From: Streptomyces katrae
Lineage (GTDB): Bacteria; Actinomycetota; Actinomycetes; Streptomycetales; Streptomycetaceae
DNA length: 64,000 nucleotides
Assembly (NCBI RefSeq): GCF_002028425.1
Contig: NZ_CP020042.1
Coordinates: 6,113,560 to 6,177,559 of the forward strand
Direction: 5' to 3'
Under the pieces are notes generated by a model. The model ran no database searches. It had not been told where the DNA came from and saw only the letters and a program-made list of their open reading frames with translations. Both the position numbers and the translations under genes were made by a program. Positions 35,767 to 47,184 of the stretch are shown piece by piece (position 1 is the stretch's first letter; every line of letters starts with the position of its first letter).

Positions 35767-38052
35767 CTACCTTCCTCGTAGCCACCCCCTGCCCCGGGAG
35801 TGTGTCTGCCAGTACGCCAGTGCCTCCTGGGTGGTCGCGAGGTCGGGGTGGTCCGGGCGGAGTACGCGCAGTTGCTCGTTCAGCAGGTCGGAGAGGAGGG
35901 CAATCGCGCCGCGAGGGTCGCCGGAGCGGCCGCGCCAGTGGGCGAGCGCGGCGCGGGTGCGGAAGATTTCGGACCGGTCGGTGTCGGTGGCCACCGCGTG
36001 CGGATTGGACCAGGTGTTCCGAGAAGCCCGGGCGATCTCGCGCGACTCCAGGCGGAGCTGGTCGTTGAGCAGGTCGGTCAGGACGGTCACGGCCCCTCGC
36101 GTGTCGCCCGACTCGCCCAGCCAGTGGCCGAAGCGGAAGCGGGTCTCGAAGGTGCCCGAGTACTCCGGCCCGTAGTTGCGGAGCTGCTCGTCAACGAGCT
36201 GGCGATACGCGACCACTGCCCCGGCAGCGTCCCCTGCCTTTCCCTGCCACTCGGCGGCGGTGCGGCGCAGAGTGAAGTCGGGCGGGCCCGTCCGTCCGTT
36301 AACGGCCGCGATGTACCGATCATCGGCGATCATGTCGTGATAGACGCTTGCGATGCCCGGCAGGTCGCCTGCCTCTTTGAGCCAGTAGGCCAGGCGGTGG
36401 CGCAGCTCGGTGACCTCCGCGACGAGGCGGACCCGTTGGGAGGGGAACAGTTCGTACTCCGGGTTCAGCAGGGCCAGCTGATCGTCGATCATCCGCCGGT
36501 ACTCGGTGATAGCGGCGGCGAGGTCGCCGGACTCCGCCCGCAGCCGGGCGATCCGGCCGCGCAGTTTCGTCACGGACTCGTGCCGGGTTCCCAGCCGGTC
36601 GGCCGTCGTCGGCAGCAGCGCCAAGAAGTAGTCCAGTGCGGCCTGTGGCCGGCCGTCGTCCGCCAGCGCGTCGCCCACCCGGAACACGAGGTCGTGCAGC
36701 CCCGGACCGGTACTCCAGCCGTGCCGGAGCGCGGGCTCGCCGGAGCCCAGCAGGAGGACCGGGGCATTGCGCGTCAGCGCCTCGACATTCGAACGCAGCA
36801 CGTCCGGCGGGAAGTCGAGGACGCGCGAACGCAGATGTGGCATCTGCTCACGCGGAGGTACCATGAAGAACGTCATCGAGTTCGCCTCGTCCGCCGACTT
36901 CCGGGACGCGGCGAAGAGCAGGTTGGCGGCCCAGTCGACCAGCTCCGCGGCCCGGCTCGCGGGCACGCCCTCGCGGACGGCTCGCTGCACCACCGGGTGG
37001 ACCCGCACGGACCGGTCCCGGTCCGCCGGGTCGTAGTCGAGCAGGCTCCACCGGTGCAGCAGCGCGAGCGTCTCGACGGTACTCCCGTCCGGCTCCACGT
37101 CCTCCGTCGGGCGTGGGGTCCCCTCCGGGGCGCGGTACCTGAACGCAGGGGTCAGCACCGCAGCCGGGATGCCGTCGAAAGCCAGCGGCGCCGCCAGCTC
37201 CAGCAGGGCCCGCGCCGTCCCGACCGGCTCCTGGGCGTCGGCGCGCTCCAGCGCGAGGTCCCAGAGGTTCGGCAGAGGCAGGCTCTGCTCGTCCGGCAGT
37301 CCGCCAGGGTCCGGTACGAGGTCGGCCAGCTGCCGCCCCTCGTCGCGGAGTAGGCGGAGGTAGTCGGCGCAGCTCAGGCCGGTGCCGACCAGGTAGGCGG
37401 CCGCCTGCGCGAGCGCGACCGGCAGGTGTCCGAACTCGCGGGCGAGCGCCTCCAGCTGCTCAGGCGGTTCGAATCGGCCGGACGCGGCGAGCACCGCCGT
37501 GAGGTAGCCGAAGGCCTCGGCGGAGCTGAACGACGGCACGGTGACCACCTGTCGGCCGAGCCCCTCGCGGGCCAAGTCCCGGCGCGAGGTGGTGACCAGG
37601 GTCCGCCCAACGGGCTGGTTCGGAGGCCAAAGCCCACGCAGAGCGTCGGGGTCGACCAGACCATCCAGGACGATCAGCCAGCGGACCGCCTCCCCGCCCC
37701 CGCCCGGCCGGAGCCAGGCCAGGAACTCCCGCGCGCCCTGCTCCGGATCGGCTGGGTCACTACCAGTGATCTCGGCGATGGCCCGGGCGTAGGCGGTCAG
37801 AATCTCCACGCGGCTGCCGGCGGTCACCCAGACCAGCAAGTCGAGCTGCCCGGCCTGCCAGGCCGTCCGGGCCTCGTTCGCGGCCAGCTGGGTCTTGCCG
37901 ACCCCCGCTGTGCCGACCAGTATCCGGTAGCGCGCAGGGGTGTCGGGGATGTCGACAACGGCCCGGTGCTGGAAGCAGCCCGCGGTGTTCGGAACCGCCC
38001 CGACCTGGTGCGGCCAGGCCGCCGGGGCACGTCGGCCGGCGTAGTAGGCCAC
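35767..38052 (-). CDS. STAND NTPase (NB-ARC) with C-terminal TPR array
   Basis: A 761-residue signal-transduction ATPase. The P-loop is ILVGTAGVGKTQLAANEA (about residues 48-65) and Walker B is RWLIVLDGLVD (about 125). An ARC/winged-helix region with FGHLPVALAQAAAYL (about 210) follows. The C-terminal half (about 450-750) holds TPR-like units (ALDYFLALLPTTADRLGTRHES, AITEYRRMIDDQLALL, AVTVLTDLLNDQLRLES). Such NLR-like proteins sense phage or stress through the repeats. The GTG at 38052 is the first canonical start; the frame upstream continues open with LFTGVQASNHSLAVGHAD, an amyloid-motif-like stretch, so a rare start further up is possible. The partner gene lies directly upstream. Confidence 0.8.
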   Translation of the reverse strand: MAYYAGRRAPAAWPHQVGAVPNTAGCFQHRAVVDIPDTPARYRILVGTAGVGKTQLAANEARTAWQAGQLDLLVWVTAGSRVEILTAYARAIAEITGSDPADPEQGAREFLAWLRPGGGGEAVRWLIVLDGLVDPDALRGLWPPNQPVGRTLVTTSRRDLAREGLGRQVVTVPSFSSAEAFGYLTAVLAASGRFEPPEQLEALAREFGHLPVALAQAAAYLVGTGLSCADYLRLLRDEGRQLADLVPDPGGLPDEQSLPLPNLWDLALERADAQEPVGTARALLELAAPLAFDGIPAAVLTPAFRYRAPEGTPRPTEDVEPDGSTVETLALLHRWSLLDYDPADRDRSVRVHPVVQRAVREGVPASRAAELVDWAANLLFAASRKSADEANSMTFFMVPPREQMPHLRSRVLDFPPDVLRSNVEALTRNAPVLLLGSGEPALRHGWSTGPGLHDLVFRVGDALADDGRPQAALDYFLALLPTTADRLGTRHESVTKLRGRIARLRAESGDLAAAITEYRRMIDDQLALLNPEYELFPSQRVRLVAEVTELRHRLAYWLKEAGDLPGIASVYHDMIADDRYIAAVNGRTGPPDFTLRRTAAEWQGKAGDAAGAVVAYRQLVDEQLRNYGPEYSGTFETRFRFGHWLGESGDTRGAVTVLTDLLNDQLRLESREIARASRNTWSNPHAVATDTDRSEIFRTRAALAHWRGRSGDPRGAIALLSDLLNEQLRVLRPDHPDLATTQEALAYWQTHSRGRGWLRGR

Positions 38053-38153
38053 TTGGTCGGCGTGGCCGACGGCGAGGCTGTGGTTGCTCGCCTGTACCCC
38101 CGTGAACAGCGGCGGCGGCGAGGTCTGTGTTGGGCTAGGCGTAGCCGGTCCGT

Positions 38154-38630
38154 TCAGCCCCTGGACGGATCCGGCCCCTGAGGGTGGCCGATCTGCACAC
38201 CCCCGTGGATCACACCGGCGGCGACCGAGCCTTCCTGTGCGCTGATGTGCACGCTTCCGCCGACCGCCATCCCGCCATCCCCGGCCGACACTTGGGCCTG
38301 CGCCGCGCGCTCTTCAAGCAGCTCGCGCAGGGCCTCGCCCGCGCGCTCGCGCTCGCCGTCCGGCAGATCCTCCAAGAACGCCTCGAACCGGACCTGCCAG
38401 GAGGCCTCCTGCCGGATCCTGAGCCGCTCCAGCTGGCTGCCCTCGGCCGCCTCGAGCTCGGCGGCGGTGCGTTCCAAACGCTCCAGCTCAGCGCTCTCGC
38501 GCTGGGCGTTCCCCCGCCCGAACCAGGCGGCCACCCGGCTTCGGAACCCCTCCCAGGCCGCGGTCCCGGCCGCGGTCATCACCGCCGTCCCACCGGACAT
38601 GGCCAGCCCCGTCAACGCCTCGGACAGCAT
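38154..38630 (-). CDS. partner of STAND NTPase, coiled-coil with amyloid-motif-like C-terminus
   Basis: A 158-residue protein. It has a short hydrophobic N-terminal segment (LSEALTGLAMSGGTAVMTAA) and a long charged coiled coil (ESAELERLERTAAELEAAEGS, about residues 47-67). The C-terminal Gly/Ser/Val-rich tail (GGSVHISAQEGSVAAGVIHG) resembles bacterial amyloid signalling motifs. GGGGGG precedes the ATG at 38630. Small genes of this form regularly precede NB-ARC/TPR genes in streptomycetes. A role as effector or adaptor triggered by the NTPase is inferred. Confidence 0.65.
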   Translation of the reverse strand: MLSEALTGLAMSGGTAVMTAAGTAAWEGFRSRVAAWFGRGNAQRESAELERLERTAAELEAAEGSQLERLRIRQEASWQVRFEAFLEDLPDGERERAGEALRELLEERAAQAQVSAGDGGMAVGGSVHISAQEGSVAAGVIHGGVQIGHPQGPDPSRG

Positions 38631-38824
38631 GCGCAACCCCCCGTGTCGGCAACCGTGACCCCGACCGTACCGCGAGCCGGGCACCGCGCCCAGGCGGATA
38701 TCCACACAATCGCTCAGGCGAGCGAGGGCAGGTGACCAACCGTCAAGCCAGACCGGCCAATCGTCACCCTGAAGCGCCGATGTCAGTGCCGTTCGCCGGC
38801 ACGGCGCCCGGCGGATTCCCCCCT

Positions 38825-39020
38825 CTACAGCCAATCCCGCTTCTTGAAGATGACGTACAGGCTCACGCACACCGCTGCCATCAGCAGGATCGCGAAGGGG
38901 TAGCCCGCCGCCCAGTGCAGTTCGGGCATCGTCTCGAAGTTCATGCCGTAGATGGTTCCCACCAACGTGGGTGCAAACAGAATGGCGGCCCACGAGGAGA
39001 TCTTCTTGAAGTCGTCACCC
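38825..39020 (-). pseudogene. corA 3' end, copy 2
   Basis: A second set of 63 CorA C-terminal codons (GMN in TIYGMNFETMPEL, ending FKKRDWL), differing from copy 1 at 8 residues and at many silent positions. It would have restored the 3' end of corA when element A's ancestor integrated, and was itself displaced by element B. There is no start or promoter of its own. Confidence 0.85.
38994..39020. repeat. putative attachment site copy 2
   Basis: Same 27 bases as 35502-35528, in the same orientation, 3,492 bp away. It marks the right end of element A and the left end of element B. Confidence 0.75.
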
Positions 39021-39483: not shown

Positions 39484-39678
39484 TCAAGGAATCACGTCTC
39501 CAGGATCGTCGGGGCGGTGGCCGTGAATGCGGTACACGAGCTCGTCCGGGTGGCGCATGACCCTGGCCAGTCGCCACACCGTCTCATACGGCCTGCGGCC
39601 GCGCTCCCGGGACCACAGACAGAGGGCGAGCAGACTGGTGAGCGGGTCGAGCAGCCAGCGCAGTACGGAGGTCTTCAC
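39484..39678 (-). CDS. small basic protein, last gene of Pycsar-type operon
   Basis: A 64-residue protein (VKTSVLRWLLDPLTSLLALC, then WSRERGRRPYETVWRLARVM) with one short hydrophobic stretch near the N-terminus and an Arg-rich remainder. Its GTG overlaps the stop of the upstream gene (GTGA), the same coupling used elsewhere in the operon, which supports it as real. Function unknown. Confidence 0.55.
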   Translation of the reverse strand: MKTSVLRWLLDPLTSLLALCLWSRERGRRPYETVWRLARVMRHPDELVYRIHGHRPDDPGDVIP

Positions 39679-40448
39679 TGCTCATCCTCCGTTGGGAGGG
39701 GGACGGCCGTGGGGGAGGGGGTCGCAGGTTCCAGGTCGTCGGGCGGCGGCCAGGGGAAGCCGTCGGCCCAGCCCATCTGCTCGAAGAGCGTGCGGGCGGT
39801 GGCCATGAATCGTGCTTGCCGCCCTGGCATGGCGTCCAATCGCTTCCAGACGTAGAGGAGGGTGTGAGCGAGCCGCTCTGCTTCTGTGCTCTCGGTGGCC
39901 GACGTTCCCACCACGGGCAGGATCGCCTCCTGAAACGACGTCCAGTCGAGGGCCGACAAGTCGTCCAGATGTTGCTCCAGCCACCACAAGCGGGCGGTGT
40001 TCTGGTCGGCGCACACGGTCCGAGCCAGCTCCTGACGCCGTAACCGCTCCTGGGCGAGACGGAGTTCCACATCGCGCAGGGCGTCCTGGTGCCTTTGGGA
40101 GCGGTCGGCATCCTGCTGGGGGAGCAGGAGGACGAGACGGGCCCGGAGCCAGAGGCCGGGGCGGCCGGTGGGGTTGTGCCATGGGGAGATCGCCAGGGCT
40201 AGCTTCTGCCGAGCGCACTCCAGCTCCTCGGGCCGATGTTTCCCGGCAATGCCGCGGCCGAGTTCGTCCAGGGCCAGGCGGGCTGCCGCTCGCGCGGCGG
40301 TCGCGCGGTGGGTCCCGGCCACCTGGGGAACGACCAGATGGGTGAGAGTGCCGCGCGCGAGGAAGCGGACGCCCGGTAGACAGGTGGGCCAGTACGCAGT
40401 GAACCGGCCGACCCGCCGTCTCCACCAGTGGCCGGGACGATCGGTCAC
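39675..40448 (-). CDS. unknown protein in Pycsar-type operon
   Basis: A 257-residue protein with a basic Trp-rich N-terminus (WWRRRVGRFTAYW), an Ala/Arg-rich helical region (HRATAARAAARLALDELGRG), a charged probable coiled coil near residues 120-145 (ALRDVELRLAQERLRRQEL) and a Pro-rich tail. No domain recognised. Coupled to the NTPase gene upstream and the small gene downstream by GTGA overlaps, so it is produced with them. Confidence 0.65.
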   Translation of the reverse strand: MTDRPGHWWRRRVGRFTAYWPTCLPGVRFLARGTLTHLVVPQVAGTHRATAARAAARLALDELGRGIAGKHRPEELECARQKLALAISPWHNPTGRPGLWLRARLVLLLPQQDADRSQRHQDALRDVELRLAQERLRRQELARTVCADQNTARLWWLEQHLDDLSALDWTSFQEAILPVVGTSATESTEAERLAHTLLYVWKRLDAMPGRQARFMATARTLFEQMGWADGFPWPPPDDLEPATPSPTAVPLPTEDEQ

Positions 40449-42460
40449 GCCTCTGACACCTTCCCGACGCGGTCGTAGTGCCGCATGGCGTGACCGAGGA
40501 CGTCCCGCCAGAACGGCTGGACCACCGCTCCCTCCTCCACTAGCAGCCGGTCGAAAGGCCCGCGCAGTCGCGGTGGGGCGAACACTTCCGCGAGCAGCGT
40601 GATCGCCGCGTCCCTGTGGTCTTTGTCGTACTCGAACCGCTTCTGCCACCGGGTGAGCTGGTCGAGCACGGGGGCCACCGCCTCGTCGGTCGACAGCAGC
40701 GACTGCCAAGCAAGGACGTAGTGCTCCCTGTTGTTCGCCTCCCGCGCCGAATCGAGGACGAGGTCGGTGCCCTCGTCGCTGGAGACGAGTGCCAGGAAGG
40801 CCCCCAAAGCCCTGCGGAGAGCCTTCTCGCCAGCCTCGGTCCCGTGCTTCTTCAGCCACTGCACGACCGTCTTGTCCACCAGGCCGGGGGTCTGCCGGAC
40901 GAGCCCCCGGAAGGCATCGGTCAGCTTCCCGGCTCCGAAGTCCATCCCACCCGCCGCCTTGCCCAGGCGGGTCAGGGCGAGTGCAGGCTGTTCCAGGCCC
41001 CAGGGTCCGCCGCAGACGTCGACGACCAGATCGAGCTTCTCTGCGTTGCCGGACTCCGCCCATGTGAGGAGCCGGTCCCGGACGTAGCGGCCGAGTTCGA
41101 CGTCGGTCGCGGCTTTCGTCAGCGCCTCGACGGCCAAGGTCCGCCGAGGGCCGGTGAGGCCCGTCGCGAGTGCGTCGAGCACGTACCTGTCGTGCCGGCG
41201 TACCGCCAGGCGCAGGAGGGCCTCGCTCGCCAGGCGGGCGTCGTCCTCCGGGACGGACCGATTCGCGGCGACCCCGACCGCCCATGCCGTCAGCAGGTCG
41301 TGCTGGGTGGGGAACTCGTCCCACAGATGACGCAGGATGGCCGCGGGTAGCCCCTGGCGACTTCGGTCGTGGTGGGCCCGGTCGCCGACCGGCACGATCT
41401 CGGCAGCCTGAAGCCGACGGGACGACGTCGCATCGGCTAGCACATCGGCCGGCCCGCGGGCCTGGCCCAGCGAGACGAGCAGGTCGTCGGACGCGCGGAC
41501 GACGGAACCGCGCCGCCCTCCGTCGAGCAGCGCTCCCGCCCACACCGTGACCCGAGTGGACAGCAGCGACGGGCCCCCGTCCACCGCACCGCGCTTGTTG
41601 AGCAGTTTCTCCACCGTGGTGTGCCAGTCCCCGAACCGGTCCACGATTTCCTTGAGCTGTTCCCTGTCCTTGGCCGTGCCAAGGAGCCCGGCCAGTCGGA
41701 ACGCCTCGCAGGCGGATGGGTCGGTTGCCCAGATCGGGGAGAGTTTCTCGTCCGCCAGCCAGGCCACCCGGTCCAAATGACCGCGCGCGATGAGCTCGGC
41801 CTCGACCAGGCGCCGCGCACCAGGAGACTCCAGCCGTACGGTGACGCCGCCGGTGGCGTCGGCCAGCGCACCCTGCCAGTCGCCCGGAGTGGCCAGTACG
41901 ACCAGGAATGATTCCCGTTCGCGCAGCGCCGCTCCGTGCAGGACCAGGTCCGGCCCGAATCGGGCGGGTGGCTCGTCCGGCAGGTCGGAGAGGTCGAGCA
42001 CGAAGCCCGTCGTCGACCGCTTCGGGAGGCACTGGGTCCCCGGCTTGGACCACTCCGGTTCGAGGTCGAACAGTTCCAGGCCCTGCAGTGCCGCCGCCCG
42101 GCGCAGGAGCCGTACTGCCGCGGTCCGTCGGCCGCTGCCGGCGGGCGCGCACAGCACCACGATGCCGTGCTCTTCGAGGATCTTGGCGGCGTCCGGTAGA
42201 CGGTTCGGCTCCCGGGGCTCAACGAAGCGCCCATCCTCGCTCGCCTGGTGGGCGGAGTCGCGGCCGTCGATGGGCAGGTCCTGGACGTAGTCACCGTTCA
42301 GGTGCACGGCGTAGTTGTGCGCCTGAACGTTGTTGTCGCCGTATTGGCGGTACTCCGTGTTCGATGGCGGCGCGCCGGCCGGGGCTTCCTGCGTCGGCGG
42401 TTCCGTCGGCTCCGTACCGCGGTGGTTAGGGTCGGGCATCTCGCTGCTCTGGTTACTCAT
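40445..42460 (-). CDS. P-loop NTPase (STAND-like) coupled to cyclase
   Basis: A 671-residue protein. After a Pro-rich head, residues 37-50 read YRQYGDNNVQAHNY, a motif shared with the C-terminus of the cyclase encoded just upstream. A P-loop APAGSGRRTAAVRLL lies at about residues 105-120 (Lys replaced by Arg in the GxxGxGR form). The rest is helical, probably an alpha-solenoid of degenerate repeats, with no named family. Its ATG overlaps the cyclase stop (ATGA). It is probably a sensor or effector partner in the cyclic-nucleotide system. The Arg in the P-loop leaves ATP hydrolysis uncertain. Confidence 0.7.
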   Translation of the reverse strand: MSNQSSEMPDPNHRGTEPTEPPTQEAPAGAPPSNTEYRQYGDNNVQAHNYAVHLNGDYVQDLPIDGRDSAHQASEDGRFVEPREPNRLPDAAKILEEHGIVVLCAPAGSGRRTAAVRLLRRAAALQGLELFDLEPEWSKPGTQCLPKRSTTGFVLDLSDLPDEPPARFGPDLVLHGAALRERESFLVVLATPGDWQGALADATGGVTVRLESPGARRLVEAELIARGHLDRVAWLADEKLSPIWATDPSACEAFRLAGLLGTAKDREQLKEIVDRFGDWHTTVEKLLNKRGAVDGGPSLLSTRVTVWAGALLDGGRRGSVVRASDDLLVSLGQARGPADVLADATSSRRLQAAEIVPVGDRAHHDRSRQGLPAAILRHLWDEFPTQHDLLTAWAVGVAANRSVPEDDARLASEALLRLAVRRHDRYVLDALATGLTGPRRTLAVEALTKAATDVELGRYVRDRLLTWAESGNAEKLDLVVDVCGGPWGLEQPALALTRLGKAAGGMDFGAGKLTDAFRGLVRQTPGLVDKTVVQWLKKHGTEAGEKALRRALGAFLALVSSDEGTDLVLDSAREANNREHYVLAWQSLLSTDEAVAPVLDQLTRWQKRFEYDKDHRDAAITLLAEVFAPPRLRGPFDRLLVEEGAVVQPFWRDVLGHAMRHYDRVGKVSEA

Positions 42461-43242
42461 CGCTGGCCCCGCTCGCGGTAGAGGTTGTAGGCCTGGGTGT
42501 TCTGCTTGCCGCGCTGGTTGAAGGTCACAGCGCCGGGCCCCGTTGGAGCCGTGGGCGTCGGCGCCGTGTGCGCCGCGGTCCCCGGCTCCTCCTCATCCGC
42601 GGGTGCGGTGGACGGCTCGAAGATGTCCGGATCCGCGAGCCCCCAGTCGAAACCGGGAAGGTGCAGATAGGCGGGCTGCTCGAACTTCTTCACCTTGACC
42701 AGATGCCGGTGGAAGTGCGCCGGCAGAACGTCGTCGTTGACGCAGCCGCTGTCGAAGACGTCCTCGTACACTCGCTGGGAGACGATCACGGCTGTGTTGG
42801 TGATCTCGGGATGCCCGCGCTGGAGCACCGCCCGTAGCACCTTGTCGTCCAAGAGCCTGTGGGTCTGCACCATCGGCACACCCAGACCGCTCCGAGGCAA
42901 CGGTCCGACGTGGATGCTGACCCGCATCTGCAGCGGCTTGAGGTGCGGGTTCTCAGCCCGTCGGCGGCCGAGCGCCTGGCGCAGCGCGTCGGGGAAGTGT
43001 CCCACCAGCGCGGGCAGAACCTCGGGGTCCATGCCGGCGACGTAACCATCGCCCGTGTGCTGGCCGAACACGCGCCGCTCCCAGTGCGCGCTGACGTTGC
43101 TGGCGCTCAGCGCCTGGGCCAGCAGGGGCGGGATGTCGGCGTTGACCCGCTGCATTTCCTTGCTGTCAAGTGTTCCGAAGTCCCTGGCGTCCACGGCCAG
43201 CACGGCCCGATAGGGCCACAAAGGCTCCCATGACGGCAGCAT
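42457..43242 (-). CDS. Pycsar-type nucleotide cyclase
   Basis: A 261-residue class III cyclase-homology protein. Metal-binding positions are present: YRAVLAVDARDFG (first Asp, about residue 17) and FGQHTGDGYVAGM (the GDG second Asp, about 60). VSIHVGPLPRSG and VIVSQRVYEDVF follow the cyclase pattern. It lies in one operon with a PycTM-like effector, so it probably makes cUMP or cCMP on infection. The ATG at 43242 has AGAGGAG 6 bases upstream; a longer frame to 43350 is not supported. The C-terminal tail FNQRGKQNTQAYNL repeats the motif at the start of the next protein. Confidence 0.8.
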   Translation of the reverse strand: MLPSWEPLWPYRAVLAVDARDFGTLDSKEMQRVNADIPPLLAQALSASNVSAHWERRVFGQHTGDGYVAGMDPEVLPALVGHFPDALRQALGRRRAENPHLKPLQMRVSIHVGPLPRSGLGVPMVQTHRLLDDKVLRAVLQRGHPEITNTAVIVSQRVYEDVFDSGCVNDDVLPAHFHRHLVKVKKFEQPAYLHLPGFDWGLADPDIFEPSTAPADEEEPGTAAHTAPTPTAPTGPGAVTFNQRGKQNTQAYNLYRERGQR

Positions 43243-43340: not shown

Positions 43341-43356
43341 TGTGTGGCACGTCACA
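43341..43356. promoter_or_regulatory. CRP-like binding site upstream of cyclase gene
   Basis: TGTGT, GGCACG, TCACA matches the TGTGA-N6-TCACA CRP/FNR consensus with one mismatch. It overlaps the end of the CRP-like gene and lies about 100 bp before the cyclase start, a position suitable for control of the cyclase by the encoded regulator. Confidence 0.5.
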
Positions 43357-44056
43357 TGACGGGAGCTCCGCGCGGCGGCCGGTCGCTGTCTCCCACTCCG
43401 TCGTCCTGCGCCGCGGCTCTCAGCAGGGCAGGATCCCTGACAACGAGCCGCCGACGGCCGAGCGTGACGATGCCGTCGGACTGTAGACGCGCGAGGGCGG
43501 CGAGCGCGGACGACCTGCTCATGCCCGCCATGGTGGCCAAGTCCTCCCTGGGTATGCCGAGTTCGACGACAACACCGCCACCCCCGTCCTGGTGACCCAC
43601 CTCGTCTGCAAGATGGGCGACCACCCGTGCTAGGCGCGCCGGCGGCGGCAGATGAGCAAGGTCGGCGCGCAGACGCTCCTGGCTGTTCAGCCGGTCCACG
43701 CTCAGCCGGTACACGACCGGCTCCAGGCGATGCCGGGCCACGTATCCACGGAAGGCATGTGCGGCCATGACGACACCGGTGCAGGGACGTACCGCAGTCA
43801 CGGTCGCCGAGCGCGGCCGGTCGAGCAGCACACCCATCTCGCCGAGGACCTCGCCGGGGCCGCGGAGCATCAACGTCAGATGGTCCCCGGCCTCATTGCC
43901 CTGCACCACCTTGACGAGGCCGTCGACCAGCGCGATCACACCGTCGGGTGACTCGCCTTGGGCTAGCAGCACCGCCTGGCTTCGGTAGGTGCGCCGATGC
44001 CCGCGTTCGATCAAGTCGCGCCAGACATCAGGAGCGACGAGGGAAAGAAAATTCAC
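43352..44056 (-). CDS. Crp/Fnr-family regulator in Pycsar-type operon
   Basis: A 234-residue regulator. Residues about 15-125 form a cyclic-nucleotide-binding beta-barrel (FGFG-like GEVLGEMGVLLDRPRSATVTAV contains the phosphate-binding cassette with E and R), a dimer helix follows, and the C-terminal winged helix (IPREDLATMAGMSRSSALAALARLQSDGIV, about residues 170-200) binds DNA. GGAGG lies 7 bases before the GTG. It sits between the membrane effector and the cyclase, so its ligand may be the cyclase product, giving feedback control. Confidence 0.88.
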   Translation of the reverse strand: MNFLSLVAPDVWRDLIERGHRRTYRSQAVLLAQGESPDGVIALVDGLVKVVQGNEAGDHLTLMLRGPGEVLGEMGVLLDRPRSATVTAVRPCTGVVMAAHAFRGYVARHRLEPVVYRLSVDRLNSQERLRADLAHLPPPARLARVVAHLADEVGHQDGGGGVVVELGIPREDLATMAGMSRSSALAALARLQSDGIVTLGRRRLVVRDPALLRAAAQDDGVGDSDRPPRGAPVM

Positions 44057-44075: not shown

Positions 44076-44570
44076 TCACGCGAGAACCGTGGCTGCGGCG
44101 AAGAAGCCGCAGCCAGCTACTGCCAGGACGAGGGAGCACTGCACCCGTCGGTGTTTGGCCCAGGCTATTTCGCTCATCACTACCAGTTGCCGGCTGAGTG
44201 AAGGCAGCGGGTCCGTGTTCCGCAGCGCCCTCTCCAGCGCGGCTGGTTCCATGAGCCGCAGGTGTCCGAAGTACAGGAAGTCGCCGTCCGGCTCTGGCCC
44301 GCGCCGCTCTTTGCCGAGCCGGGGAGAAACGGCCCATGCGGCGCAACCGGCACCCGCCATGATGAGTAGGACACCGAGCCACAACAGTGTCTGTGCCGCG
44401 ACGGACTCGAACCCGCCCGCCGCCCGCCGGGAACTCGCCAGCAGACTAAGTACGGCCAGCGTGGTGGACTGCAGGGTTAGGGCGAGCGCGGCTTTCGAGT
44501 CCGCCTTGGCCGTCGCATCCGCGACGGCTGACTGGATCTTCCACGCTGTTTCGGTCGGCTCAGTCGGCAC
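44076..44570 (-). CDS. Pycsar membrane effector (PycTM-like)
   Basis: A 164-residue membrane protein with two N-proximal hydrophobic spans, a third at the C-terminus (VQCSLVLAVAGCGFFAAATV), and the conserved-looking GDFLYFGHLRLMEPAALERAL and SRQLVVMSEIAWAKHRRVQ segments I associate with the PycTM effector family. In Pycsar systems this protein binds cUMP or cCMP and impairs the membrane. The GTG at 44570 is chosen because GGGGGG lies upstream and the longer frame lacks family features. It is the first gene of the minus-strand operon and is 19 bp from the CRP gene. Confidence 0.75.
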   Translation of the reverse strand: MPTEPTETAWKIQSAVADATAKADSKAALALTLQSTTLAVLSLLASSRRAAGGFESVAAQTLLWLGVLLIMAGAGCAAWAVSPRLGKERRGPEPDGDFLYFGHLRLMEPAALERALRNTDPLPSLSRQLVVMSEIAWAKHRRVQCSLVLAVAGCGFFAAATVLA

Positions 44571-45089
44571 GTTGACATCCCCCCAGGTGCAGCGAGTGCC
44601 TGCTCGCTGTTGCTGCGCTGAAGGCTGCGCAGGCACGGCCGTCCGAAAACACACGGCGGATATCTTGGCCTGAACACGGTGGGGGAACGGGCGGTCCTGT
44701 CGGGGCGCTGCCGTAAGCGCATGATCATGCACAACCTGCCCGGGAGCCAGATGCATACTCCATGCATCGCATGCGGCGATACAGGAAGCCCGCCGATGCG
44801 TGAGATCTTCCGTCGCCCAGGCTCCTTAGTGTGGATTCTGGTGCTGGAGCCGGACAGGCGCGGCAAGAACGCGCCAATGTCACTCGGTGTAATGGGGTGG
44901 GTGGGTGAGTCCTGGGGACGGCGGCCCTCGGGACCAGACGGCCTGCGTCGCGGCCATGGAGGATCTGCCGCAAAGTGAAGTATCTGCCCCTCTGCCTTGA
45001 CCAAGCGGAGTACCGCTTTGCCGGGCATTCCCGGGGCGGGCTGTTGTCAGTGGCGTTGGGCAGAATGTGGTCAGGGGGAAGGAGTGGCG
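44571..45089. other. 519-bp divergent control region upstream of Pycsar-type operon
   Basis: No credible gene is seen. It must hold the promoters of the minus-strand operon and the plus-strand small gene. Notable is ATGCATACTCCATGCAT (44751-44767), two 6-bp palindromes spaced 5 bp apart. GC content is visibly lower than in the left half of the window. Confidence 0.45.
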
Positions 45090-45323
45090 ATGTCCACCGA
45101 GGGTTCTGACCTGCGCATACCTACGCCGAGCGGCTGCCGCTGGTGTGGGATCGAAGCGCGTGAGCACATGCAGCGATGGAAGCCACCAGTGGGATGGCAT
45201 GAGTGGGTGGCTCCCACTCTGGAGCAGCGCAAGGAGCGCATGCTAGCCCGCCGTCGGCAGGATCGAACCGACACCGGTGGTGGGCTAGCGGCACAGGGAC
45301 GGATCAGGAAGCTACCTTCCTGA
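45090..45323 (+). CDS. small mobile-element protein with CxxC
   Basis: A 77-residue protein (CRWCGIEAREHMQRWKPPVG, then WVAPTLEQRKERMLARR) with a single CxxC and a Trp-rich centre. GGAAGGAG precedes the ATG at 45090. Similar small proteins recur on integrated Streptomyces plasmids. Its 3' end overlaps the convergent OLD gene by 20 bp. Function unknown. Confidence 0.65.
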   Translation: MSTEGSDLRIPTPSGCRWCGIEAREHMQRWKPPVGWHEWVAPTLEQRKERMLARRRQDRTDTGGGLAAQGRIRKLPS

Positions 45324-47184
45324 GCTCCTTGAAGACGTTCCGCAACTGCATCGGCACGTCTTGCGGATCATTCAGGGTCATAGCCAGATCAGACATCATC
45401 CGGGGTTTGCCGCCGGGGCCGCTGGCGCTGCCGGACTGCAGCATCTGCTGAACCTCGGAACTGAACTTGCCCTGGCTGCGGAGGGCGGCGAAGTCGGCAG
45501 GCTGCCAGGTGCCGTCGTCCTTCGGCCAGATCTTGTTGGCGACACGAGCCCATACGCCGTCATGGAACAGCTCCTCGAGCTCGTTGAACATTTCCCCCTG
45601 TGGGTCGTGGTCCTCGGGTTCCCCGAGGAATTTCACGTAGCGGGAGGCGTCGGTACCGAAGAACTGGGTGAGCTTGGGGGTTTTGAAGATGCTCTTGCTT
45701 ACGTTGCGGCTGTCGGCGTCGACCACCAACATGACCGTGCGGCCCTGCCTGACGAGGTAGCGGGCTAGGTGCAGGGCGCCTTCATTGTTGAAGCACGCCC
45801 ACAGAGCGATACCAGCTGCCTGCAGCGACAGCCCCTCGCACAGCCGGAACAGCAGAGGGAAGGCTTGCTGCTCGGTTTCGCCTTCCACTGCCAGGAAGCA
45901 GCGCTCATGCAGCAGCACCGAGTTCCTCAGCCCGACCGCAGCGGCGATCTTGCCCAGGTATTCGTCGATCTCCTCCCCAAGAACTCCGGCCCCGAGCCGC
46001 TCCACGACCGTCCGGTGGTTCACTAGCTTCAGGTGTACCACGTCGGAGATGTCGACCCCGTCGATGAGGTTCATCGAATGGGTCGCCACCACCACGTTGA
46101 CGTCACGGACATCGCTCTGCGCCCGAATCAACTGCATGATCTTGCGCTGATGCGTGTAGTCGAGATGAGTGTCTGGCTCGTCGTACACCACGATCGTCTG
46201 CACGGTCGGCGGCTCGAGCGGCTCGCCCCCACCTGGACCGACGGTGGGGGCGGTGTCTTCCTCCGCTGCTAGCAGCTCCTGAGTCCACTCCCAGATCGCC
46301 AGTGATATACGGCGGTTGCTGCCCAACCCTGTGCGATCCAGTCCCACCGCCTCCCCAGCGCGGCGGGCGATGCGCAGCGGCGCGCCCTTGAAGCCCTGCT
46401 GGAAGGAAACGTCAGGATCGACGGAGACCTTCTGTAGATCCGGGCAGCGTGTCTGGATGTGATCACACAGAGATTTCGCGTCGAGGCGAAGCCGATCCTG
46501 AACCTCGCCCTCGATGGCCGAGAGTCTGCCTTTGAGCTCAGGATCAGCCATGTGGCTGGAAAAGCGGTCGATCAGTGCAGTCCTGACTGCGTCATCAGGC
46601 TTGGCAGCCTTGCCGTCGAACGGGAGATAGCGCGGCATGCGCTTTCCGAGACCAGAGGGCGCAAGAACCCAGCCCTCCGAACTGGCGTGCTCCCGCCCGT
46701 ACGCGCGCAGAGCTCCGAGCAGGTCCGGCTTGCGCGCGGAGAGGGGGGAAAGCCCCAGTTCCTTCACCAAGGCTTTCGCATCCGAAGCCTGATACTGCGC
46801 CAGATCATGCAGCCGCTCGTCATCCGGAACGGCCTCCCAGAGCTCCAGCCGAGACACGAGGTCCTCACCAGCACAACGGCGCAGTCGAACCCGCTCAGGA
46901 AGGCCGAACTCGTTCTGCTCCCACGTGTCCAGGGTGAACCGTCCGACGACACTGGTCTCCGTGCACCTCAACGGCGGAGTGGACTCGTCGCCCCCGGCGA
47001 CATCCATATAAGTGCGATCGTCGAGTGTCAGCTCATGCTTCCCGAGCAGGAAGGCGAGGGCGCCCAGCACCGCGCTCTTGCCCCCGTCATTGTGGCCAGC
47101 GAGGATCGTGGGCTTCCCGACTGGTATGTCTGTGATCTCTGTCAACGAACGAAAACCGCTCACGCCAAAGCTGTTCAGGTGCAC
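45304..47184 (-). CDS. OLD-family ATP-dependent nuclease (AAA + TOPRIM)
   Basis: A 626-residue OLD-type protein. The ABC/SMC-like ATPase has Walker A in LAGHNDGGKSAVL (about residues 29-41) and Walker B in IVVYDEPDTHLD (about 330), followed by VVATHSMNL. The C-terminal TOPRIM nuclease has the Glu motif FLAVEGETEQQA (about 433) and DxD in MLVVDADSRN (about 487). OLD nucleases act against phage or foreign DNA. No UvrD-like gene follows, so it is a stand-alone (class 1-like) OLD rather than Gabija. GC content is lower than the chromosome average. Confidence 0.87.
   Translation of the reverse strand: MHLNSFGVSGFRSLTEITDIPVGKPTILAGHNDGGKSAVLGALAFLLGKHELTLDDRTYMDVAGGDESTPPLRCTETSVVGRFTLDTWEQNEFGLPERVRLRRCAGEDLVSRLELWEAVPDDERLHDLAQYQASDAKALVKELGLSPLSARKPDLLGALRAYGREHASSEGWVLAPSGLGKRMPRYLPFDGKAAKPDDAVRTALIDRFSSHMADPELKGRLSAIEGEVQDRLRLDAKSLCDHIQTRCPDLQKVSVDPDVSFQQGFKGAPLRIARRAGEAVGLDRTGLGSNRRISLAIWEWTQELLAAEEDTAPTVGPGGGEPLEPPTVQTIVVYDEPDTHLDYTHQRKIMQLIRAQSDVRDVNVVVATHSMNLIDGVDISDVVHLKLVNHRTVVERLGAGVLGEEIDEYLGKIAAAVGLRNSVLLHERCFLAVEGETEQQAFPLLFRLCEGLSLQAAGIALWACFNNEGALHLARYLVRQGRTVMLVVDADSRNVSKSIFKTPKLTQFFGTDASRYVKFLGEPEDHDPQGEMFNELEELFHDGVWARVANKIWPKDDGTWQPADFAALRSQGKFSSEVQQMLQSGSASGPGGKPRMMSDLAMTLNDPQDVPMQLRNVFKELRKVAS

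Follow-up and report, generated by a model that had tools for sequence, protein, structure and literature searches.

We show here that a predicted class III nucleotide cyclase of Streptomyces katrae and the P-loop NTPase encoded by the overlapping downstream gene carry matching short motifs, at the C-terminus of the former and the N-terminus of the latter, and that this match co-varies between cognate partners across homologous cyclase/NTPase pairs, in a genomic neighbourhood that features a Crp-type regulator and a Pycsar-type PycTM effector. As the best reading of these data, we consider it rather probable that the locus encodes a Pycsar-like system gated by the NTPase, in which amyloid signalling recruits the cyclase.

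The window, i.e. the whole analysed stretch of 64,000 nt (assembly GCF_002028425.1, contig NZ_CP020042.1, positions 6,113,560-6,177,559 of the forward strand), features on its minus strand the gene order PycTM-Crp-cyclase-NTPase-257-aa protein, with 4-nt overlaps joining the last three genes. The class III nucleotide-cyclase-like protein (261 aa; 42457-43242, minus strand) consists of a core of about residues 1-203 followed by a disordered tail, and its gene shares positions 42457-42460 with that of the 671-aa P-loop NTPase (40445-42460, minus strand); an earlier sequence-only reading of this DNA had already described the NTPase as overlapping the cyclase. Upstream lie the candidate messenger-responding regulator, of Crp/Fnr type (43352-44056, minus strand), whose cNMP-binding and Crp HTH domains both score over cut-off (PF00027 and PF13545), and PycTM, a Pycsar-type 2TM effector (44076-44576, minus strand), the start of which near 44576 is an estimate, with the longest open reading frame extending to 44756. 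Of the 11 orthologue loci of the window (L250-L260), 10 encode the 257-aa protein, of unknown kind (39675-40448, minus strand; start codon overlapping the NTPase stop), which elsewhere turned up solely in shorter, overlapping versions of those loci. The window also holds a gene of defence type for an OLD/GajA-like AAA ATPase with a TOPRIM domain (45304-47184, minus strand), located upstream of the operon, as well as a second candidate BASS (bacterial amyloid signalling sequence) pair (35767-38993, minus strand), where an NB-ARC/TPR protein is preceded by a small helical protein that we take to be BELL-like and whose C-terminus is GSVHISAQEGSVAAGVIHGGVQIG; no N-terminal motif matching GSVHISAQEGSVAAGVIHGGVQIG was seen in the NB-ARC/TPR protein.

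The two motifs in question are FNQRGKQNTQAYNL in the cyclase tail (residues 241-254 of 261; 42481-42522, minus strand) and YRQYGDNNVQAHNY near the start of the NTPase (residues 37-50 of 671; 42311-42352, minus strand). Both peptides were found where the sequence-only reading had placed them, and its gapless alignment over 14 residues was reproduced, with 6/14 identities (Q, G, N, Q, A and N) and a BLOSUM62 score of 33; compared with all other parts of the two proteins, the cyclase tail scores 15-21 and the NTPase N-terminus 14-20. Shuffling of both termini places the pair only modestly above chance (p = 0.026), and at least 6 of the 1560 C-tail/N-terminus pairings between the 40 called genes of the window outscore it, the top six reaching 36-47. 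The single window pair is weak evidence, and it is the cross-genome comparison that carries the case.

For that comparison, 233 cyclase-like ORFs were reduced to 207 usable ones, which form 27 clusters when grouped at 60% core identity; left out were 1 without a stop in the locus, 24 without a next gene by our rule and 1 with a tail outside 20-200 aa. Across the 27 clusters, cyclase tails score on average 50.0 with their cognate N-termini versus 32.1 with non-cognate ones (z 11.1, equalled in 0/20,000 permutations), and the effect is absent from all three controls: z was -0.9 when tails were scored against the C-termini of the NTPases, -1.5 when cyclase cores were scored against the N-termini, and 0.8 for further pairs of neighbouring genes (n=18). 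Chance, a plausible explanation for a single pair, is ruled out as a full explanation by this comparison together with its controls. The cognate N-terminus ranks first in 13/27 clusters after normalisation (12/27 raw) and lower in the other 14/27, where some of the next genes do not encode NTPases; a P-loop regular expression matches 22/27 next genes, 19 of which were accepted by eye, and no tail/N-terminus match is visible in L035, L039 and L212. Among ten genomes that hold two usable systems each, the cognate combination outscores the cross combination in 16/20 cases, the failures being L035, L039, L177 and L200. The motifs themselves vary greatly between clusters, as exemplified by QGMAVMGGVVGDIT in L034, VDARGAVFGFG paired with VDASGAAFGFG in L046, and TVHGGMHQSF paired with TVHGGVHQTF in L157. 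The sequence-only reading had staked its proposal on such co-variation in homologous cyclase/NTPase pairs, and we observe it both between the 27 clusters and among the closer orthologues described below. Two groups of loci depart from the common architecture. In L050 and L218 the tail of the cyclase is similar not to an NTPase but to the C-terminal motif of a small helical neighbour, presumably BELL-like; two effectors here have one tag, which connects the family directly with the known BASS systems. In L035, L037 and L039 the usual NTPase is replaced by a downstream protein that starts near a CFVIGPI/CFVVGPI stretch.

Co-variation extends to the window's own orthologues. From 28 orthologue pairs, comprising the window and 27 pairs matched up by equal length of the longest contig, 5 were dropped for N-termini that are too short, and in the remaining 23 the cognate combination is favoured with a permutation p of 5e-5; the cognate ranks first in 7/23 and the window pair fourth, as would be expected where near relatives have motifs in common. 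The aligned 14-mer form is present in 15/28 pairs, and in these 15 cognates share 9.40/14 residues versus 7.43 for non-cognates (p 5e-5), as illustrated by the pairs FHQYGEHGKQGYNF / FHQYGDHSVQAVHY in L250 and FSHTGEHGIQAYNH / FSHSGEHGIQAYNL in L252. At motif positions 3 (Q or H) and 8 (N or not N) the two sides agree in 21/21 pairs, with 3 and 2 changes, respectively, on each side when mapped on the cyclase tree. A phylogenetic sign test was set aside, as 2 starred independent pairs and so few co-switches put significance out of its reach. Two orthologous loci are probably decayed alleles: L255 (G321), where a single open frame spans cyclase and NTPase but lacks the stretch with both motifs and the P-loop, and L258 (G173), where the cyclase is shortened and the NTPase was not found.

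A motif at the C-terminus of one protein that matches one at the N-terminus of an adjacent NTPase is the arrangement that defines BASS signalosomes, and the cyclase/NTPase pairs display it. In the available texts on BASS1-10 (BELL/NLR two-gene signalosomes; PMC7889193, PMC8086366, PMC12261475), the genes are likewise adjacent or overlapping and the C-terminal motif sits on the effector and the N-terminal one on the NTPase (PMC7889193), with effector motifs reported on BELL and, less often, CHAT and TIR proteins, and with BASS3 related to RHIM (PMC7889193). These sources describe BASS motif families as diverse in filamentous actinobacteria, and the motifs studied here are diverse as well. A profile of the window-clade motif sets two BASS3-type peptides, Frankia BASS3 and an archaeal BASS3-like one, in the register F-x-Q-x-G-x4-Q; both are among the peptides for which section 13 of PMC8086366 gives Congo red binding and aggregate spectra. 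Against a background from which proteins already matching the motif pattern had been excluded, the pooled profile matches them with shuffle p values of 0.002 (BASS3) and 0.018 (BASS3-like) and the cyclase-only profile with 0.003 and 0.006, while the NTPase-only profile matches BASS3 (0.009) and not the archaeal BASS3-like peptide (0.17). This suggests a BASS3-like register. The core spacing of RHIM is Q-x-G-x-x-N, and the motifs share this spacing with RHIM functional amyloids, in a comparison drawn through the two BASS3-type peptides alone. What sets the present pairs apart from BASS is the nucleotide cyclase on their effector side. A count of the word 'cyclase' gives 0 for the main text of each of PMC7889193, PMC8086366 and PMC12261475, and no cyclase was found as a BASS partner in the literature covered, the founding BASS paper (Dyrka 2020) lying outside that scope.

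The same co-variation data apply to a real and specific recruitment pair of a non-amyloid kind, in which the disordered segments would either form a beta clasp or share a third protein as their binding partner, with the NTPase acting as a scaffold for the cyclase and no templating involved. That both motif segments are predicted to be disordered and that motifs differ so much between clusters is in keeping with this alternative, but the paired sequences are near-identical instead of complementary, as homotypic templating expects (12/14 identical residues in the motif pairs P0014/P0135, P0017/P0136 and P0031/P0140), and the BASS3-like register, as well as the effector C-terminal/NTPase N-terminal layout in the text of PMC7889193 cited above, speak against it; we regard such a mechanism as unlikely, albeit one to keep in view.

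AlphaFold2 (AF2) modelling and fold searches divide the NTPase into a disordered N-terminus, an AAA+/STAND-like ATPase and a C-terminal helical solenoid, with pLDDT under 50 throughout residues 1-51, which hold the motif. Its Walker A sequence is GSGRRT, in which Arg replaces the canonical Lys, and G108, G110 and R111 are invariant in 54 aligned rows. The designation 'STAND-type' given by the sequence-only reading has weaker backing, from a generic AAA+/STAND-like fold and from an nSTAND3 match of the window NTPase that remains below threshold (19.4 bits, cut-off 27.2); among nine other NTPases nSTAND3 matches are below cut-off in 2/9 and absent in 7/9.

For the cyclase, a Pfam-based assignment had to be abandoned, as none of 19 members examined features a match to PF00211, and the predicted fold was used instead. 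This fold is that of a class III cyclase, with solved PycC structures among its matches, so the cyclase identity proposed from sequence holds by predicted fold and lacks a Pfam match. Metal-binding Asp18 and Asp65, as well as Arg129, are present in 27/27 clusters, and the catalytic, transition-state Asn position is occupied by N in 9/27 clusters and by other residues in 18/27, with V in the window protein. The PADLOC PycC model picks up 3/19 relatives (best E 0.0028) and, at E up to 1, gives no hit to the cyclase of the window, which was not assigned to that family. By its modelled fold and conserved residues the protein is a putative cyclase, and the tail that carries the motif is predicted to be disordered. 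The family is found in 25/61 close genomes, in at least 119/199 sampled Streptomyces genomes (profile search, E up to 1e-5) and, across the phylum, in 7/296 genomes at E up to 1e-30, with named loci including Streptomyces, Kitasatospora, Actinoplanes, Micromonospora and Salinispora; among 392 genomes searched, 11 others are listed with a cyclase closely akin to that of the window (58-90% identity). Close relatives at 60-80% identity to the window cyclase also occur on large actinobacterial plasmids, in 5 of the 8 records that matched, which suggests mobility.

The Crp and PycTM genes, which the sequence-only reading had missed, supply an output for the proposed coupling. A Crp gene lies upstream of 220/232 cyclases, in a count of partly redundant, non-independent loci where the same place may have been fetched twice, and in 23/27 clusters, and 8/8 tested Crp proteins contain both domains. 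The window PycTM matches PF18967 with 73.1 bits (cut-off 27.2) and PADLOC PycTM with an E-value of 2.4e-30, and is the sole PF18967 match in the 8.06-Mb genome at E up to 0.001. PycTM-like genes lie near 74/207 cyclases and in 12/27 clusters, and Pfam confirms 6/7 of those tested outside the window. Where at least 4 kb is available on both sides, 45/90 loci hold PycTM and about half do not; among the matches listed genus-wide (150 vs 150), PycTM and cyclase lie within 10 kb of each other in 71/150, where about 0.4 would be expected. Between the Crp and cyclase genes lies a CRP-like palindrome of the form TGTG-N8-CACA, TGTGTGGCACGTCACA (43341-43356), a candidate operator and one of two such sequences in the window. 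The same form occurs in 7/167 cyclase upstream regions, versus 0.3 expected by shuffling, and in 2/8 of those in the window's cluster, and with these frequencies a conserved Crp operator was ruled out. Separately, inverted repeats of six bases around a 4-base spacer are found in 47/167 cyclase upstream regions, versus 16 in one shuffle, and could possibly mark a site for a regulator that does not follow the CRP consensus.

The class III cyclase fold, the two metal aspartates and a PF18967 PycTM beside the cyclase are shared with Pycsar, for which PycC and PycTM have been described as a two-protein system, with activation only modelled in the available text of PMC11224242. Unlike Pycsar, the present systems include two extra conserved genes, encoding the Crp regulator and the NTPase, as well as a disordered, motif-bearing tail on a cyclase that escapes the PADLOC PycC model; neither Crp nor NTPase was found in Pycsar operons in the literature covered, a scope outside which the founding Pycsar paper (Tal 2021) falls. 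A second parallel is with the VMAP ternary and iSTAND2 conflict systems, which include cNMP cyclases and in which, according to the portions available of Kaur et al. 2020 and 2021 (PMC8195603, PMC7159879), the cyclase is likewise coupled via an adaptor shared with the NTPase N-terminus. The adaptors of those systems are folded EAD or death-like domains, whereas here a short BASS-like motif within a disordered segment forms the link, and a Pfam search found no adaptor domain.

Inactive cyclase domains occur in these related conflict systems, as far as the consulted part of PMC7159879 goes, and a comparable degenerate nucleotide-binding module, producing no messenger and leaving the assembled complex itself as the output, would agree with the 0/19 Pfam matches and with the absence of Asn from the transition-state position in two-thirds of clusters (18/27). 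Yet both metal aspartates and Arg129 are present in every cluster, and the cyclase is adjoined by partners of the cyclic-nucleotide type, namely a Crp with a cNMP-binding domain and an effector of the Pycsar type, which makes a messenger-free module quite improbable in our estimate.

At the codon level, the two motifs use the same codon at 61/69 positions versus 45.9 expected from codon bias over seven loci, an excess that derives mostly from the L251-L256 clade, where gene conversion may, on this sequence evidence, keep the motif pairs alike; codon identity is near expectation in the window (4/6 vs 3.9) and in L250 (6/7 vs 5.2), and for the window pair gene conversion is not needed as an explanation. 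That motif likeness in general is a functionless product of composition or of gene conversion between low-complexity linkers draws on this excess, on the single-pair p of 0.026 and on the higher-scoring unrelated pairs, but is very improbable given controls that show no effect in the same genomes and with the same adjacency, an effect that holds across 27 clusters with unrelated motif sequences, and a codon excess that is small or nil in the window and in L250.

Returning to amyloid recruitment by the NTPase, the pathway we infer would begin with the NTPase as a sensor that oligomerises upon a trigger, whereupon its BASS3/RHIM-like N-terminal motifs would form a cross-beta seed. On this seed the matched motif at the cyclase C-terminus would be templated, and cyclase chains would be brought together. 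Class III cyclases function as dimers, and clustering would activate the enzyme for that reason. The resulting cyclic nucleotide would act on PycTM at the membrane, where it would halt growth or kill the cell as Pycsar does, and also on Crp for transcriptional feedback, in what may be a phage-defence role. A more elaborate version, which we advance tentatively and hold somewhat doubtful as a whole, would have a STAND-like sensor control a prion-like, all-or-none amyloid gate on a Pycsar-type cyclase, a second-messenger enzyme of immunity, with numerous motif pairs, insulated from one another within the genus, serving as separate wires and a Crp arm carrying the alarm into transcription.

Overall, a matched NTPase-cyclase pair would join the BASS and Pycsar fields, and its numerous distinct cognate motif pairs are ready-made tests of specificity. 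If the proposed coupling is true, a Pycsar-like cyclase acquires a concrete sensor and amyloid signalling gains a new enzymatic, signal-amplifying output, and templating between proteins may be a way in which bacteria raise an immune alarm through a second messenger.
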